The translations under genes and the position numbers were made by a program. A DNA stretch of 32,662 nt. Origin: a virus. Each line of letters begins with the position of its first letter. Positions within the stretch are counted from its first letter, which is position 1. The stretch is from IMG/VR virus record IMGVR_UViG_3300030430_001287, positions 2,346 to 35,007 of that record; one strand, written 5' to 3'. A model generated the notes under the pieces. The model searched no databases. It was not told where the DNA came from and saw only the letters and a program-made list of their open reading frames with translations. Of this stretch, positions 12,029 to 17,462 are shown one piece after another.

Positions 12029-13563
12029 TGTATCAGACTGGCACTATGAGAGGGCAGTACGAGAGAATGGCAGCACGCCGCTCTATGTACCTTGACCGTG
12101 GGCGTGATTCGTCGCGTCTCACCATTCCGACATTGCTGCCTGACGCTGGTAACAACGAAGCCACCAAGTTCCCTACCCCGTATCAGTCCGTTGGTGCGAG
12201 AGGTGTGAACAACCTAGCCTCTGCTCTTCTTCTTTCTCTACTCCCTCCCAACGCACCATTCTTCCGACTCGTCCTCGATGAAGGTGAGGAGAGGAAGATT
12301 GAGGGCATTGACCCAACCATTCTCTCGGAGGTGGAGGATTCCCTTTCTCAGATCGAACGAGCGATTAACAAAGAGATTGAAAGCGGCAACATGCGTGTCT
12401 CTCTCTTTGAAGGACTCAAACATTTAATTGTAACTGGCAACGTGCTGATGTACATGCCAGAGGATTTACCTGTTCGAGTGTGCCGTCTTGATCGGTACGT
12501 TGTCAAGCGATGTCCACAAGGCTACGCCCGATGCATCATTCTCAAAGAGACAGTGCATCCCTCGATGTTGCCGCCTGCGATACGAGAAAAAGTAATGGCA
12601 GGTGTGGAGTCTTCACAAGAACATGTGGAGATGTACACAAAGCAAGAAGCAATTGACATAGACAATGTTGAGATTACACAAGAGGTCGGTGGTGTTCCGA
12701 TTCCTGAAGTAACCCAGCAATTCAAAAAGAGCGAAGCCCCCTTCCTTGCACTCCGCATGGTTCGCGTCGATGGTGAAGATTATGGTCGTGGTTATGTAGA
12801 ACAGTACTACGGCGACCTGTCCTCCTTGGAGGGTCTGAGTAAGGCCATCGTTGAGGGATCTGCGGCGGCTGCTAAGATCCTGTTTCTCGTTAACCCGAAC
12901 GGCACAACTCGTGCCCGGACACTTGCAGAGTCACCTAACGGTGCAATTAGAGAAGGATCGGCAAATGATGTCAGTGTATTGCAAACGCAGAAAGCGGCGG
13001 ATTTCAGCGTTGCTTTTAGTGCAATCAAGCAAATTGAAGATCGGCTTTCGTATGCATTCCTCCTCACCGAATCAACTATACGCAATGCGGATCGGGTCAC
13101 GGCTGAAGAAGTCCGACTCGTAACGCAGTCGATTGAAAAACAACTGGGTGGGATTTACTCCGTACTGTCTCAAGACTTCCAACTTCCAATGCTCAAGCGA
13201 GTGATGAAGCAGATGTCCAAAGACAAAAAGTTGCCATCATTGCCGTCCGACAAGATCGTGCCAACCATCATTACTGGTGTGGAGGCATTGGGTCGTGGTT
13301 CAGACTTGAACCGATTGGACAGTTACTTGGCTGGCATTGCACAGATTTTGGGTCCGCAAGCAATCCAAGAATACGTCAATGTCTCTGAATACCTCAGCAG
13401 GCGTGCTGCCTCGTTGGGTATTGATCGTCGTGGTCTTGTTCGTACTCAAGAAGAACTTGATCAGATGCGGCAACAAGCCGCTATGGCCCAAATGGCCCAA
13501 CAGGCTGGACCGCAAGTGCTTGCCAATGCGTCCGACGCCGCAACCCAACAACCAGAACAATGA
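12028..13563 (+). CDS. Portal protein (head-tail connector, T7 gp8-like)
   Basis: The product is 511 aa, against 536 in T7. It starts in a TGATG overlap. The N-terminal block with TPYQSVGARGVNNLASALLL matches the strongly conserved VGARGLNNLAS block of T7-type portals, and the C terminus is the usual Gln/Ala-rich helical tail. It forms the dodecameric ring at one capsid vertex through which DNA is packaged and ejected, and to which the tail tubular proteins attach. Confidence 0.95.
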   Translation: MYQTGTMRGQYERMAARRSMYLDRGRDSSRLTIPTLLPDAGNNEATKFPTPYQSVGARGVNNLASALLLSLLPPNAPFFRLVLDEGEERKIEGIDPTILSEVEDSLSQIERAINKEIESGNMRVSLFEGLKHLIVTGNVLMYMPEDLPVRVCRLDRYVVKRCPQGYARCIILKETVHPSMLPPAIREKVMAGVESSQEHVEMYTKQEAIDIDNVEITQEVGGVPIPEVTQQFKKSEAPFLALRMVRVDGEDYGRGYVEQYYGDLSSLEGLSKAIVEGSAAAAKILFLVNPNGTTRARTLAESPNGAIREGSANDVSVLQTQKAADFSVAFSAIKQIEDRLSYAFLLTESTIRNADRVTAEEVRLVTQSIEKQLGGIYSVLSQDFQLPMLKRVMKQMSKDKKLPSLPSDKIVPTIITGVEALGRGSDLNRLDSYLAGIAQILGPQAIQEYVNVSEYLSRRAASLGIDRRGLVRTQEELDQMRQQAAMAQMAQQAGPQVLANASDAATQQPEQ

Positions 13564-14354
13564 GTGACCATCAATCCGTAAACATCATTCCCGACAACAT
13601 GGAGAACGCTCCATCGTTGGAACAAGAAGCCGCAGCAATGGAGCAACAACTCGGTGAGCCGCAAGCCCCGCAAGAAGTCGAAGTTGACGAATACACCGAG
13701 GAACGACCCGCGTGGCTCCCTGAGAAGTTCGACTCGCCAGAAGCCCTCGCAGCCGCCTACGCCTCCCTCCAATCAGAGTTCAGCCGAGTAAGAGGCGAGC
13801 AGGTAGAAGGAGAGGACTACGGTGAAGAAGGTGAAATCCAGATCGCACCGTTTAGCGATGAAGACATGATGCCCTTCACAATGGAGTTTGAGCAAACCGG
13901 CGACTTGTCTGAAACCTCTCGACAGGCGTTGGCGGAGCGTGGCTTACCTCGTGAAATGATTGATCGTTACGTCGAAGGCATGCAGGCTCAGACCCACCTT
14001 GAGTTGATGAATGTGTACGACACAGTGGGTGGAGAAGACAACTACGCCGCTATGGTTGACTGGGCTGCTCAGAACCTTGACCCCCAAGAGCAAGAATCCT
14101 TCAACCACATCGTTACGACTGGCGATCAGAATGCGATGATGTTTGCAGTAAACAGTCTTCGTGCAAGGTGGGAAGCATCTGGTCAAATGCCACAGCCTCA
14201 GTTGCTGCAAGGTGATTCTGGGTTTGAGGGGGCATCCGAACGCTTTGAGTCCTTGGCTCAAGTTACTGCCGCAATGAAAGATCCTCGGTACAAGACAGAT
14301 TCTGCATACCGCCGGTCTGTTGAACTTCGTCTTGCACAATCTCAAGTCCTGTAA
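13560..14354 (+). CDS. Capsid assembly scaffolding protein (T7 gp9-like)
   Basis: The product is 264 aa, against 307 in T7. It starts in an ATGA overlap with the portal gene. It is very acidic, with long Glu/Gln-rich helical stretches. The C-terminal block (MKDPRYKTDSAYRRSVELRL) is the basic coat-binding end typical of podovirus scaffolds. It should direct procapsid assembly and leave before DNA fills the head. In T7 the capsid gene follows directly, but here 1.9 kb with ten tiny genes intervenes. Confidence 0.92.
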   Translation: MSDHQSVNIIPDNMENAPSLEQEAAAMEQQLGEPQAPQEVEVDEYTEERPAWLPEKFDSPEALAAAYASLQSEFSRVRGEQVEGEDYGEEGEIQIAPFSDEDMMPFTMEFEQTGDLSETSRQALAERGLPREMIDRYVEGMQAQTHLELMNVYDTVGGEDNYAAMVDWAAQNLDPQEQESFNHIVTTGDQNAMMFAVNSLRARWEASGQMPQPQLLQGDSGFEGASERFESLAQVTAAMKDPRYKTDSAYRRSVELRLAQSQVL

Positions 14355-14363
14355 GGAAATCAC

Positions 14364-14558
14364 ATGCCTAATAAACCCGGATACAAAACTACAGAATTCT
14401 GGCTGTCTCTTTGTGCAGTCGCCCTTGGTGCGGTCATCGGATCAGGAGTCATTCCTGCGGACGGACCTTGGGTTCAAGTCGTTGCCTTGTTAAACACAGC
14501 CTTGGTAGCCATGGGCTACACAGGTTCTCGTCTGACCCTTAAGAATGGAGCCAAGTAA
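14364..14558 (+). CDS. Small membrane protein, holin-like
   Basis: The product is 64 aa. ATG 14364 has AAGGAAATC upstream. Two hydrophobic segments (WLSLCAVALGAVIGSGVI, then WVQVVALLNTALVAMGY) are separated by a short polar turn (PADGP), and the tail is basic (RLTLKNGAK). A short N-terminal polar part, two membrane segments and a positive tail fit class II holins and similar phage membrane proteins. If it is a holin it would permeabilise the inner membrane at lysis. T7 has its holin (gp17.5) after the tail fibre, so this location is unusual. No endolysin gene lies beside it. Confidence 0.7.
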   Translation: MPNKPGYKTTEFWLSLCAVALGAVIGSGVIPADGPWVQVVALLNTALVAMGYTGSRLTLKNGAK

Positions 14559-14674
14559 TGAAGAAAAAGATGACTCCCAAGCAAAAGCGTTTGGCTGCTC
14601 TTGCTCCTCCTCGTAACAAAATCACCAAAGCCGACATCATTGTCGGTGCAAAAAAGAGAGGCGGTAAGAAGTAA
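14558..14674 (+). CDS. Very basic 38-residue peptide
   Basis: ATG 14558 overlaps the preceding stop (TAATG). The peptide has 11 Lys and 3 Arg against one Asp, with a short hydrophobic centre (LAALAPP, ADIIVG). I found it by reading the sequence. Support comes from perfect overlap with both neighbours, since TAATG also links it to the next gene. It may bind DNA or an acidic protein such as the scaffold. Function unknown. Confidence 0.6.
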   Translation: MKKKMTPKQKRLAALAPPRNKITKADIIVGAKKRGGKK

Positions 14675-14739
14675 TGGCTTACGGCAAACCTAAGAAACCA
14701 GTTCCGGTTAAGAAACCTAAACCAAAAAAGGGGTATTGA
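14674..14739 (+). CDS. 21-residue Lys/Pro peptide
   Basis: This mini-gene starts in a TAATG overlap and ends just before the next ATG. It contains 8 Lys and 5 Pro and no acidic residue (PKKPVPVKKPKPKK), like the tip of a histone tail. It is very short, so it could be a non-coding spacer, but the overlap chain on both sides argues for translation. Function unknown. Confidence 0.45.
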   Translation: MAYGKPKKPVPVKKPKPKKGY

Positions 14740-14741
14740 TT

Positions 14742-15086
14742 ATGATGCACGGTAAACGCAAAAAGAAAAAAGGGTCAATGCAAAAGTTCTTGGAAAAAAA
14801 CCAAGTTTTCAAGAGCATGGAAAAACCAGCCCCTGCTCCTGCTCCTGCTGCTCCTACCGCTCCTCGTCCGATACCAACACCTAGAACAGTTGGCCCAACT
14901 GGTGGCTTGTTGCGCAGTCTTCTCCGTATTCAAAATGCTATGGGTGGCGGCTCGGCTGCTAACGCTAGGGGAGTTGGAGCGAGTCTTGGTCGAAAAATTG
15001 AATCAACTGTCAGACCCGTTCCCGGCCTACGACGCGAGATGGAAAAAGTAAACCGTCGCGTTCGTCAGAGGTTTGGTGCTAAGTAA
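14742..15086 (+). CDS. Basic linker protein with Pro-Ala repeats
   Basis: The product is 114 aa from ATG 14742 (a second ATG follows at 14745); AAGGGG lies upstream. Three parts are visible: a Lys-rich head (MMHGKRKKKKGSMQKF), a Pro/Ala linker (about residues 32-48, APAPAPAAP), and a basic helical tail ending RRVRQRFGAK. It has no cysteine and no membrane segment. Two charged ends joined by a rigid Pro-Ala spacer suggest a protein that bridges partners, for example DNA and the inside of the capsid. That role is a guess from composition. Confidence 0.7.
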   Translation: MMHGKRKKKKGSMQKFLEKNQVFKSMEKPAPAPAPAAPTAPRPIPTPRTVGPTGGLLRSLLRIQNAMGGGSAANARGVGASLGRKIESTVRPVPGLRREMEKVNRRVRQRFGAK

Positions 15087-15241
15087 TGTCTAGCCCAAAG
15101 CCCACCAACCCTGCCTTGTGGTCACGAGCAAAAGCATTGGCTCGCAAGAAGTTCAAGGTGTACCCGTCTGCGTATGCCAACGGCTGGGCGGCTAAGTGGT
15201 ACAAGTCCAAAGGCGGCGGGTGGCGTGGGGGTAAGAAATGA
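15086..15241 (+). CDS. Small basic phage protein
   Basis: The product is 51 aa, starting in a TAATG overlap. The segment PALWSRAKALARKKF, then YPSAYANGWAAKWYK, then a Gly-rich basic end is a pattern I recall from small hypothetical proteins in many phages: Trp/Tyr-rich, basic, with a YPSAYAN core. The regular spacing of aromatic residues suggests a compact helical hairpin. No function is known to me. Confidence 0.7.
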   Translation: MSSPKPTNPALWSRAKALARKKFKVYPSAYANGWAAKWYKSKGGGWRGGKK

Positions 15242-15405
15242 AGCATGCCAAACGCTCTGACATGAAAATCAAGGCTGACAAGAAAAAGTTCAAGCCACAC
15301 ATGATGTTCCCTAAAGGTGGCGGTAAGCCTAAGTTTGCCAAGACCTACGAAGATCACATCCGACTTGGTAAGCAGGGGTACGGGCATACGAAGCCCAAGA
15401 AATGA
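15238..15405 (+). CDS. Small basic hypothetical protein
   Basis: The product is 55 aa, linked to both neighbours by ATGA overlaps. It is rich in Lys and Gly (ADKKKFKPHMMFPKGGGK), with three His and several aromatic residues. No family recognised. It is unlikely to be an accidental frame because its start and stop interlock exactly with flanking genes. Confidence 0.65.
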   Translation: MKHAKRSDMKIKADKKKFKPHMMFPKGGGKPKFAKTYEDHIRLGKQGYGHTKPKK

Positions 15406-15650
15406 GTTATCAAGGCGGTCTTCGGAAGTGGTTCAAAGAGGACTGGCGTGATGTCAAAACTGGGGAGAAGTGTGGTCGCAAGTCAGCCAAAGGTGGATCA
15501 AAGCGTCCCTACCCAGCATGTCGCCCAGCAGCCGTAGCAAAGCGACTTACGATCAAAGAAAAGAGGGCCACTGCTCGTCGCAAGACTGGTAGTGGTCGTG
15601 TCAATTGGCAAATCACCGCATCCGGTAGAAGGAGAAAACGTGGCAATTAA
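15402..15650 (+). CDS. Conserved small basic protein with CGR...YPACRP motif
   Basis: The product is 82 aa, starting in an ATGA overlap. The block GGLRKWFKEDWRDVKTG, then CGRKSA, then YPACRP, is a strongly conserved signature I recall in small uncharacterised proteins of marine phages and some giant viruses. I do not give a DUF number because I am not certain of it. Two cysteines separated by a Lys/Gly/Ser stretch may form a disulfide or metal site. The C-terminal half is nearly all Lys, Arg, Thr and Ala. Function unknown; its repeated presence in phage genomes suggests a useful structural or DNA-associated role. Confidence 0.8.
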   Translation: MSYQGGLRKWFKEDWRDVKTGEKCGRKSAKGGSKRPYPACRPAAVAKRLTIKEKRATARRKTGSGRVNWQITASGRRRKRGN

Positions 15651-15891
15651 TTATCGTGGCGAAAGATTCTCCGGCTACAACAAGCCCAAGAGAACCCCCG
15701 GCAAATCCAAGAAGTTTGCTGTGTTGGCAAAGCAGGGAAGCAAGGTTCGATTGATCCGATACGGTGATCCCAACATGAAGATCAAGAAGAACATTCCCGG
15801 TCGGCGTAAGAACTTCCGAGCAAGACATGGCTGCGACAGCCGACCACCAAGCAAACTGTCTGCTCGATACTGGTCATGTAAGAAGTGGTAA
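15640..15891 (+). CDS. Conserved small basic protein (GYNKPKRTPG type)
   Basis: The product is 83 aa. GTG 15640 is chosen because GAAGGAG lies just upstream; the frame is open further back but overlaps the previous gene. The blocks GYNKPKRTPGKSKKF, VRLIRYGDPNM, KNFRARHGC and LSARYWSCKKW recall a family of small phage proteins that often occur near the preceding type. Very basic, with two cysteines late in the chain. Function unknown. It overlaps the preceding gene by 11 bp. Confidence 0.8.
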   Translation: MAINYRGERFSGYNKPKRTPGKSKKFAVLAKQGSKVRLIRYGDPNMKIKKNIPGRRKNFRARHGCDSRPPSKLSARYWSCKKW

Positions 15892-15892
15892 A

Positions 15893-16045
15893 ATGTGGAA
15901 TGCGTTATTTACTGCTTTGTTTCAGGTACTTCTTCCATTCGTACTTGCGGGCAAAACCGCCAAAGACGCCACTCGTCCTCCTGAGCATCACGCTTGGAAG
16001 CGTCGGATGTCAGAGTTCGAGCGTCGTATTCGTGGAAGAAAGTGA
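15893..16045 (+). CDS. 50-residue single-span membrane protein
   Basis: ATG 15893 follows the preceding stop by one base. One hydrophobic segment (ALFTALFQVLLPFVLAG, residues 4-20) is followed by a basic, cytoplasmic-looking tail (WKRRMSEFERRIRGRK). The N-out or N-in topology cannot be decided from sequence. It contains, in another frame, the start of a lipoprotein gene. By position it resembles the inner-membrane partner of a nested spanin pair, but it is too short and lacks a periplasmic coiled coil, so this reading is weak. Confidence 0.65.
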   Translation: MWNALFTALFQVLLPFVLAGKTAKDATRPPEHHAWKRRMSEFERRIRGRK

Positions 16046-16202
16046 TGGACTCGTGAGGCTCGGCCCCGATGTCCGTGGAAAAGTCTACTATTGGGATGGT
16101 GAGGGATGGTCCCTCTCGTCTTCTGTAGTCCGGTTACCAGAAGGTTGGTATGCCGGATCTTTGAATGGTTCCGACTCGCGGCCCGCTCCGGCGGATAACT
16201 GA
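15945..16202 (+). CDS. Nested lipoprotein, o-spanin (Rz1)-like candidate
   Basis: The product is 85 aa from TTG 15945, giving a compact lipoprotein signal: Arg/Lys at positions 2-7, a hydrophobic stretch LVLLSITLGSVGC, and a lipobox-like cysteine at residue 22. ATG 15900 (100 aa) is an alternative start. The mature part (VFVEESDGLVRLGPDVRG, then VVRLPEGWY) resembles small lipoproteins that sit next to phage lysis genes. About 100 bp of the 5' part is nested in another frame inside the preceding membrane-protein gene, as Rz1 is in Rz. It would act in outer-membrane disruption, implying a Gram-negative host. Start and role are both inferred. Confidence 0.6.
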   Translation: MRAKPPKTPLVLLSITLGSVGCQSSSVVFVEESDGLVRLGPDVRGKVYYWDGEGWSLSSSVVRLPEGWYAGSLNGSDSRPAPADN

Positions 16203-16253
16203 AAACGAAGAACTAATCAACTTTAAGGGTTTATTGAAAAAGGAGTCACAATC

Positions 16254-17390
16254 GTGGCATATTCAATTACTAGCCCCAACCGTTTTGGTACGAATGCTGC
16301 CAATACAGGTGCAGGGGTTGATGCACTTTTTCTCAAGGTTTTCAGCGGCGAAGTCCTGACCACCTTTGAGGAAACCAACTTGATGATGGGGCTGCACCGT
16401 GTGCGAACCATCGCCAGCGGCAAGACTGCTCAGTTCCCAGTGACTGGCGTTGCTTCCGCTAAGTACCACACCCCCGGCGAAAGCGTCTTGAATGACGATG
16501 ACGGCGGCGGTCAATACTTGTCCTCCATCAATCACAGTGAGGTCACCATCTCCATTGACGGTGTTCTTACCTCGTCCGCATTCATTGCTGACATTGATGA
16601 AGCCAAGAACCACTACGATGTGCGTGGAATTTACTCCACCGAAATCGGACGGGCTTTGGCTTACCACGCGGACCGAGCAGTCATGCGTACTGTTATTGCA
16701 GGGGCACGAAAAACCACTGACCGCTTCGGAACGGCTGCATCTACTGACTCAGCGGTTGAAGCAAGTAAGTACCTCGGTGGTGTTATCAGTATTGATGGTA
16801 CTGCTGCTGCTACGGCTACTCATATTCTCTCCGAAGGTGAGTATGGTGGCCCAACCGGCACGAACGCAACTCTTGGAACCCAACTGTTTGAAGGCATCTT
16901 CAAAGCAGCCAACTTGATGGACAAGAAGAACGTCAGCCGTGATGGTCGATACTGCATTCTCAGCCCAGATAACTACTACAAGTTGCTGACTGAGAACAAG
17001 GATGCCATCAACCGAGACTTCAACCCAGAAGGCAACGGTTCGTTGTCCGGTGGTCAATTGGTCGAGATTGCTGGTATTCAGATTCTGAAGTCCACCCACT
17101 TGCCTTCTGGCGACGAGTCTTCGTCACAGGATGCAAACTTTGGTGACAACGCCATCAATAACGATGTGTTCGGTGTGGCACAAGGCGGCTACTCCGGCGT
17201 TAACTTCACTGGTACTCAAGGTATTGTCTTCCAAACTGAAGGCGTGGGTAGCGTGAAGTTGATGGATCTGTCTTTGGAGTCTGAGTACTTCATGGAGCGT
17301 ATGGGTACGCTTATGCTTGCCAAGTACGCAATGGGTCACGGCGTTCTTCGTCCTGAAGCCTGTTACGAGTTGGTGGACACCGGATCCTAA
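16254..17390 (+). CDS. Major capsid protein (T7 gp10-like)
   Basis: The product is 378 aa, against 345 for T7 gp10A. GTG 16254 is preceded by AAAGGAG with about 9 nt spacing. The N-terminal arm and the blocks ALFLKVFSGEVLTTFEET, SGKTAQFPVTG, ITIDG-like SISIDGVLTS and NHYDVRGIYSTEIG closely follow T7 gp10 (HK97 fold). It builds the icosahedral shell on the scaffold and portal. No obvious slippery site for a gp10B-type frameshift was seen at the 3' end. A strong hairpin follows the gene, consistent with very high expression of this region. Confidence 0.96.
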   Translation: MAYSITSPNRFGTNAANTGAGVDALFLKVFSGEVLTTFEETNLMMGLHRVRTIASGKTAQFPVTGVASAKYHTPGESVLNDDDGGGQYLSSINHSEVTISIDGVLTSSAFIADIDEAKNHYDVRGIYSTEIGRALAYHADRAVMRTVIAGARKTTDRFGTAASTDSAVEASKYLGGVISIDGTAAATATHILSEGEYGGPTGTNATLGTQLFEGIFKAANLMDKKNVSRDGRYCILSPDNYYKLLTENKDAINRDFNPEGNGSLSGGQLVEIAGIQILKSTHLPSGDESSSQDANFGDNAINNDVFGVAQGGYSGVNFTGTQGIVFQTEGVGSVKLMDLSLESEYFMERMGTLMLAKYAMGHGVLRPEACYELVDTGS

Positions 17391-17425
17391 TCTGGTACAC
17401 TGATTTCGTCTGAGTTCTCCACTTG

Positions 17426-17462
17426 GGGCCACCCGTAGTTCTGCTATGGGTGGCCCTATTCT
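17426..17462 (+). terminator. Terminator-like hairpin after the capsid gene
   Basis: A 13-bp stem (17426-17438 with 17444-17456, one G-T wobble) closes a 5-nt loop and is followed by TATTCTTA. T7 has its late terminator T-phi in the same place, after gene 10, where partial termination keeps capsid transcripts far above tail transcripts. The trailing T stretch is imperfect, so partial termination is likely. Confidence 0.85.

Follow-up and report, generated by a model that had tools for sequence, protein, structure and literature searches.

Small basic genes between the scaffold and capsid genes of a marine T7-like virus, one of which shares a domain with phage capsid proteases

Introduction

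In bacteriophage T7, genes 9 and 10 encode the scaffold and the major capsid protein (MCP), respectively, and are adjacent. Lysis genes can form cassettes of the holin, endolysin and Rz/Rz1 type, as in phage lambda. Two small protein families also have to be considered here. Tlr6f (PF19058, DUF5754) is reported from almost every polinton-like virus, from several virophages and many giant viruses, and also from some phages (PMC4642659; PMC12220804), and DUF5754 and DUF5872 are both found in a giant virus, a Chrysochromulina virus (PMC12085832). The literature on these two families holds mentions of them and no tested function.

We analyzed a stretch of 32,662 nucleotides (the window), which runs from base 2346 to base 35007 of a virus record 35,007 bases long (IMGVR_UViG_3300030430_001287). 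The virus is marine and T7-like, with late genes in the order portal, scaffold, MCP and tail tubes. As in T7, the scaffold gene (13560-14354) is followed by the MCP gene (16254-17390), but the two genes, adjacent in T7, are 1.9 kb apart in this virus. A first-pass annotation had described the intervening DNA as an insertion of ten tiny, mostly cationic genes, translated as one unit in stoichiometry with the head proteins and possibly encoding histone-tail-like packaging peptides, with DNA condensation, neutralisation of the scaffold's charge or reinforcement of the capsid as suggested roles.

Results

Ten open reading frames (A-J), all on the plus strand, fill positions 14364-16202, which confirms both the separation of scaffold and capsid by ten small genes and the insertion relative to T7. 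Gene A (14364-14558; 64 aa) encodes a holin-like membrane protein. It is followed by B (14558-14674; 38 aa, net charge +13, with 11 Lys and 3 Arg), the Lys-Pro-rich C (14674-14739; 21 aa, +8, with 8 Lys and no acidic residues), D (14742-15086; 114 aa, +21), which varies in length and sequence, E (15086-15241; 51 aa, +13), F (15238-15405; 55 aa, +14), G (15402-15650; 82 aa, +21) and H (15640-15891; 83 aa, +22). E and G resemble the first and second halves of DUF5872, respectively, and H has a predicted folded domain that also occurs in capsid proteases of other phages. Gene I (15893-16045; 50 aa) encodes an inner-spanin-like protein with an N-terminal membrane segment and a basic tail, and J (15900-16202; about 100 aa), which is nested in I but read in a different frame, encodes a lipoprotein-like, outer-spanin-like protein. 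The products were rightly called mostly very basic: seven of the ten (B-H) are so, with net charges of +8 to +22 that sum to +112, while A and I are of membrane type and J is near neutral. The net charge of the scaffold is -35.

The exact start-stop overlaps reported for the block were found at five of the nine junctions, as TAATG at A/B, B/C and D/E and as ATGA at E/F and F/G. They were not found at C/D (a 2-nt gap), H/I (a 1-nt gap), I/J or G/H (an 11-nt overlap), where H starts with GTG and is preceded by the best Shine-Dalgarno site. Translation in stoichiometry with the head proteins found no support, and the MCP gene is preceded by its own 51-nt leader (16203-16253, plus strand) with the ribosome site AAAAAGGAG. 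A strong terminator-like hairpin of 16 pairs follows the MCP gene at 17424-17458. Late co-expression of the block is presumed. The intergenic gaps were searched for a shared late promoter, and the sole find was an early-region palindrome, CTTGTCATGACAAG. This perfect 14-bp palindrome occurs at window positions 61, 613, 1472, 2434, 3135 and 3215 and also at 310-2419 of L254. In all, the first 5.6 kb of the record contain 15 distinct copies of it, where chance would give 0.01 in the window. None of the other fetched loci, few of which cover the early region, has the 12-base core of the palindrome, which may be an operator or early control site. The start of the record (L254, 1-900) consists of repetitive, low-complexity sequence.

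The interval was compared across 66 distinct T7-like loci holding both scaffold and MCP, namely seven near relatives (MCP identity of 75% or more) and 59 more distant ones. The scaffold-MCP spacer is 1.9-2.6 kb in the seven near relatives and has a median of 644 bases in the 59 others. C, E, G and I are each present in all seven near relatives, H in six, D in five, and B and F in four. Each of B-H occurs in at most two of the 59 wider loci, where the commonest recognisable genes of the interval are A (19/59) and J (21/59). A and J thus form a wider layer, and B-H were most simply gained in the near clade. Because the 59 distant loci lack nearly all of B-H, these genes are dispensable for T7-like heads in general. 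The ten genes do not form the single set that had been proposed, since A, I and J look like a lysis-type cassette and relatives keep A and J without B-H. Genes have been gained and lost at single slots as well: an unrelated basic 52-aa gene lies between E and G, in the slot of F, in L163 (5508-5666), L165 (5846-6004) and L166 (5846-6004). In locus L166 (6492-7538), a gene for an acidic protein of 348 aa, whose beginning is signal-like, is inserted after H; the protein has no match in Pfam. In the MCP gene itself, the middle part (window 16601-17000) is only 79-87% identical to near relatives whose flanking genes reach 96-99% (e.g., L003), which suggests that the coat gene has recombined or diversified.

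Codon comparison of the window genes with near relatives gave dN/dS ratios of 0-0.19 for most genes of the block. The ratios were 0-0.13 for B, 0-0.08 for E, 0.04-0.10 for G and, where measurable, about 0.16-0.25 for D. For H, the ratio was 0-0.13, with no amino-acid changes against 4-9 synonymous changes in four relatives. The C protein is likewise identical in four near relatives, from which its gene differs by 7, 7, 10 and 11 synonymous substitutions. The ratios for I and J, from 0 to about 1.2, are uninformative because the two overlapping genes share synonymous sites. Frames this short and this biased in composition might be taken for spurious, a reading that is opposed by selection and conservation and that we consider hardly credible; for C, E, G and H specifically, purifying selection rules out chance ORFs. 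Purifying selection across most of the block, together with conservation in relatives, confirms that these are real, translated genes.

Gene A carries a hydrophobic segment and matched no family in Pfam and PHROG searches; profile searches with A, I and J gave no convincing family match. The J-like proteins of relatives show clearer lipoboxes. No endolysin was found among the window proteins scanned. In L165, the slot of H, between A and I/J, is taken by a protein of 306 aa that carries both a LysM and a Phage_lysozyme domain. Because this relative has an endolysin between them, and by their own anatomy, A looks like a holin and I/J look like nested spanins. The lysis-type part of the interval is ordinary.

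Among the basic genes, E matches positions 1-38 of DUF5872 (PF19197; Pfam E-value 6.9e-5, 23.8 bits) and G matches positions 54-96 (3.4e-4, 21.6 bits), both below the curated cut-off of 27.5 bits. E also matches PHROG 27331 (4.7e-9), and among 67 homologues of G, 58 have a DUF5872 match, the best at 5e-14. In the window, the two halves of the family are thus two genes with F between them, rather than a single chain. E and G usually adjoin each other: of the 77 loci outside the T7-like group that contain both, 69 have E immediately upstream of G, and at 44 of 46 such loci with H and G the two are no more than 1.5 kb apart. The predicted structure of G is poor (pLDDT 64).

H gave the most informative matches. 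PHROG 7595 matches its residues 2-83 (1.1e-20), a full-length profile match that places H in this family, and PHROG 9979, a family of 278 aa, matches near the C-terminus (3.7e-13). Homologues of H were found in 155 phage records. One of them is contained in ICP1 Gp125, an annotated capsid protease encoded between portal and scaffold, in which the H domain, about 42% identical, is C-terminal to a Peptidase_S78_2 domain at 36-160. Aeromonas phage phiA009 and Vibrio phage 1.101.O have the reverse arrangement, with the H match N-terminal and Peptidase_S78_2 C-terminal. The occurrence of two domain orders suggests that the H-protease fusions arose separately. No serine protease domain was found in the window H itself; this domain is confined to the fused relatives. 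H is predicted to fold compactly, with strands followed by two helices (pLDDT 86), so that the histone-tail reading is rejected for H. A structure search against viral models matched H to ICP1 ORF125 (TM 0.82 on the query) and to an XkdF-like protein. The H fold had no significant match in the PDB, and no convincing PDB relatives were found by sequence; matches to Erlin-1 (E 0.16) were taken as chance.

In a Pfam search, the window H did not match DUF5754. Among its homologues, 24 of 80 matched this family at E<=0.01 (best 4e-5); in a separate scan of homologues, individual bit scores were at most 15.8 against a cut-off of 27.4. H is possibly kin to DUF5754/Tlr6f, which its homologues resemble weakly.

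Gene neighborhoods were counted within 4 kb at loci outside the T7-like group, using labels for the commonest clusters only and loci that are short. At least one head gene (portal, terminase, scaffold or MCP) lies nearby at 55 of the 90 loci with H and at 48 of the 73 with G, counts that are descriptive and have no background rate. The terminase large subunit is near G in 42 of 73 loci and the portal in 43 of 73. A holin or endolysin is near H in 20 of 90 loci and near G in 5 of 73. We also inspected single genomes (KBS-S-2A, Aegir, P-SCSP2, CRP-901, ICBM2, HTVC106P, HMO-2011 and HTVC008M), which fit a head-gene neighborhood in part. KBS-S-2A and Aegir each have a stand-alone H next to head genes, P-SCSP2 has a G homologue between its scaffold and MCP genes, and in CRP-901 a stand-alone H adjoins a DUF2213-labelled stretch; in ICBM2 and HTVC106P, the H homologue adjoins lysis genes, and the settings in HMO-2011 and HTVC008M are ambiguous. 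Any head-gene enrichment behind the proportions for H and G (61-66%) may be modest because head genes fill much of small phage genomes. Part of the signal may reflect a general late-gene location, since H is also found near endolysins or holins, as in the loci counted above and in ICBM2 and HTVC106P. In the literature, we found no virion proteomics for any homologue and nothing direct for HMO-2011.

Discussion

The link to the head that the first-pass annotation had thought plausible gains support from the fusions of H to a capsid protease in three phages and from the frequent location of H and G homologues near portal, scaffold, MCP or terminase genes. The fusions point to, and do not prove, work of H inside the assembling head. 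We give about an even chance to the reading that the interval combines a lysis-type cassette (A, I/J) with a near-clade gain of B-H, encoding accessory assembly or packaging proteins of the assembling head. In this scenario, the cassette would have acquired, within the near clade, seven late genes for small basic proteins, most of them linked by overlapping start and stop codons. The compact, basic H, whose domain elsewhere forms part of a capsid-maturation protease, would probably dock on the acidic scaffold, the protease, the coat or DNA in the prohead. E and G, as the halves of DUF5872, would probably cooperate in the same step, and B, C, D and F would be further basic helpers. We infer head assembly or packaging, the best-supported site of action for the basic genes, from H. 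On this reading, the proteins would be expected in proheads or virions with a binding partner there, and they may have a role on DNA; condensation of packaged DNA by the basic proteins is one of several possibilities.

Other explanations account for parts of these observations. B-H could be mobile accessory genes, gathered at a site among the late genes that is prone to insertion, which act late on the host or against its defences, and not in the head. Their patchy presence, the replacement of slots, the differing gene content of near relatives at the site and the position of H near tail, lysis or other genes in some phages would all fit; the fusions between H and capsid proteases in both orders and the repeated proximity to portal, scaffold and terminase speak against it, and we consider this explanation unlikely. 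The proximity to terminase and portal at G loci, and the strong positive charge of E, G and H, would suit DNA-packaging accessory factors that work with terminase and portal and leave before maturation. This is rather improbable, as no fusion to terminase was seen, the fusions of H are to protease, and T7-like relatives package their DNA without E, G and H.

B-H are flanked by holin-like A and spanin-like I/J, in the place that the endolysin occupies in L165, and endolysins adjoin H homologues in some phages. This could instead mean that B-H are cationic peptides of the lysis cassette, helping the holin or spanins to disrupt the envelope. Lysis genes are near few G and H loci outside the T7-like group, and a folded H fused to a capsid protease argues against such a role, which we judge very unlikely. 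The H family extends over many phages, marine and other, and through the two-order protease fusion it can be assigned a definite place in head assembly that is open to testing.

A broader proposal is that E, G and H make up a mobile module of the capsid interior that tailed phages have in common with giant and polinton-like DNA viruses, with H equivalent to Tlr6f and acting in prohead docking or genome organisation. We regard it as doubtful. If the link to Tlr6f were true, tests of H would bear on a small protein of polinton-like viruses, virophages and giant viruses (PMC4642659).

The locus can be set beside several known systems. Like a lambda-type lysis cassette, it has a membrane protein gene first and a nested lipoprotein gene last, with an endolysin between them in one relative; unlike it, the genes lie between scaffold and MCP, have no family matches and are not accompanied by an endolysin among the proteins scanned. 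The resemblance to DUF5754/Tlr6f consists of weak matches to H homologues, with printed scores below the cut-off and the window H unmatched. E and G together cover the two halves of DUF5872, in a version that is split around F and scores below the curated cut-off. A further counterpart is the ICP1 Gp125-type protease (Peptidase_S78_2/XkdF), which shares the H domain by sequence and by predicted fold, whereas in the window the 83-aa H protein stands on its own, without an attached protease.
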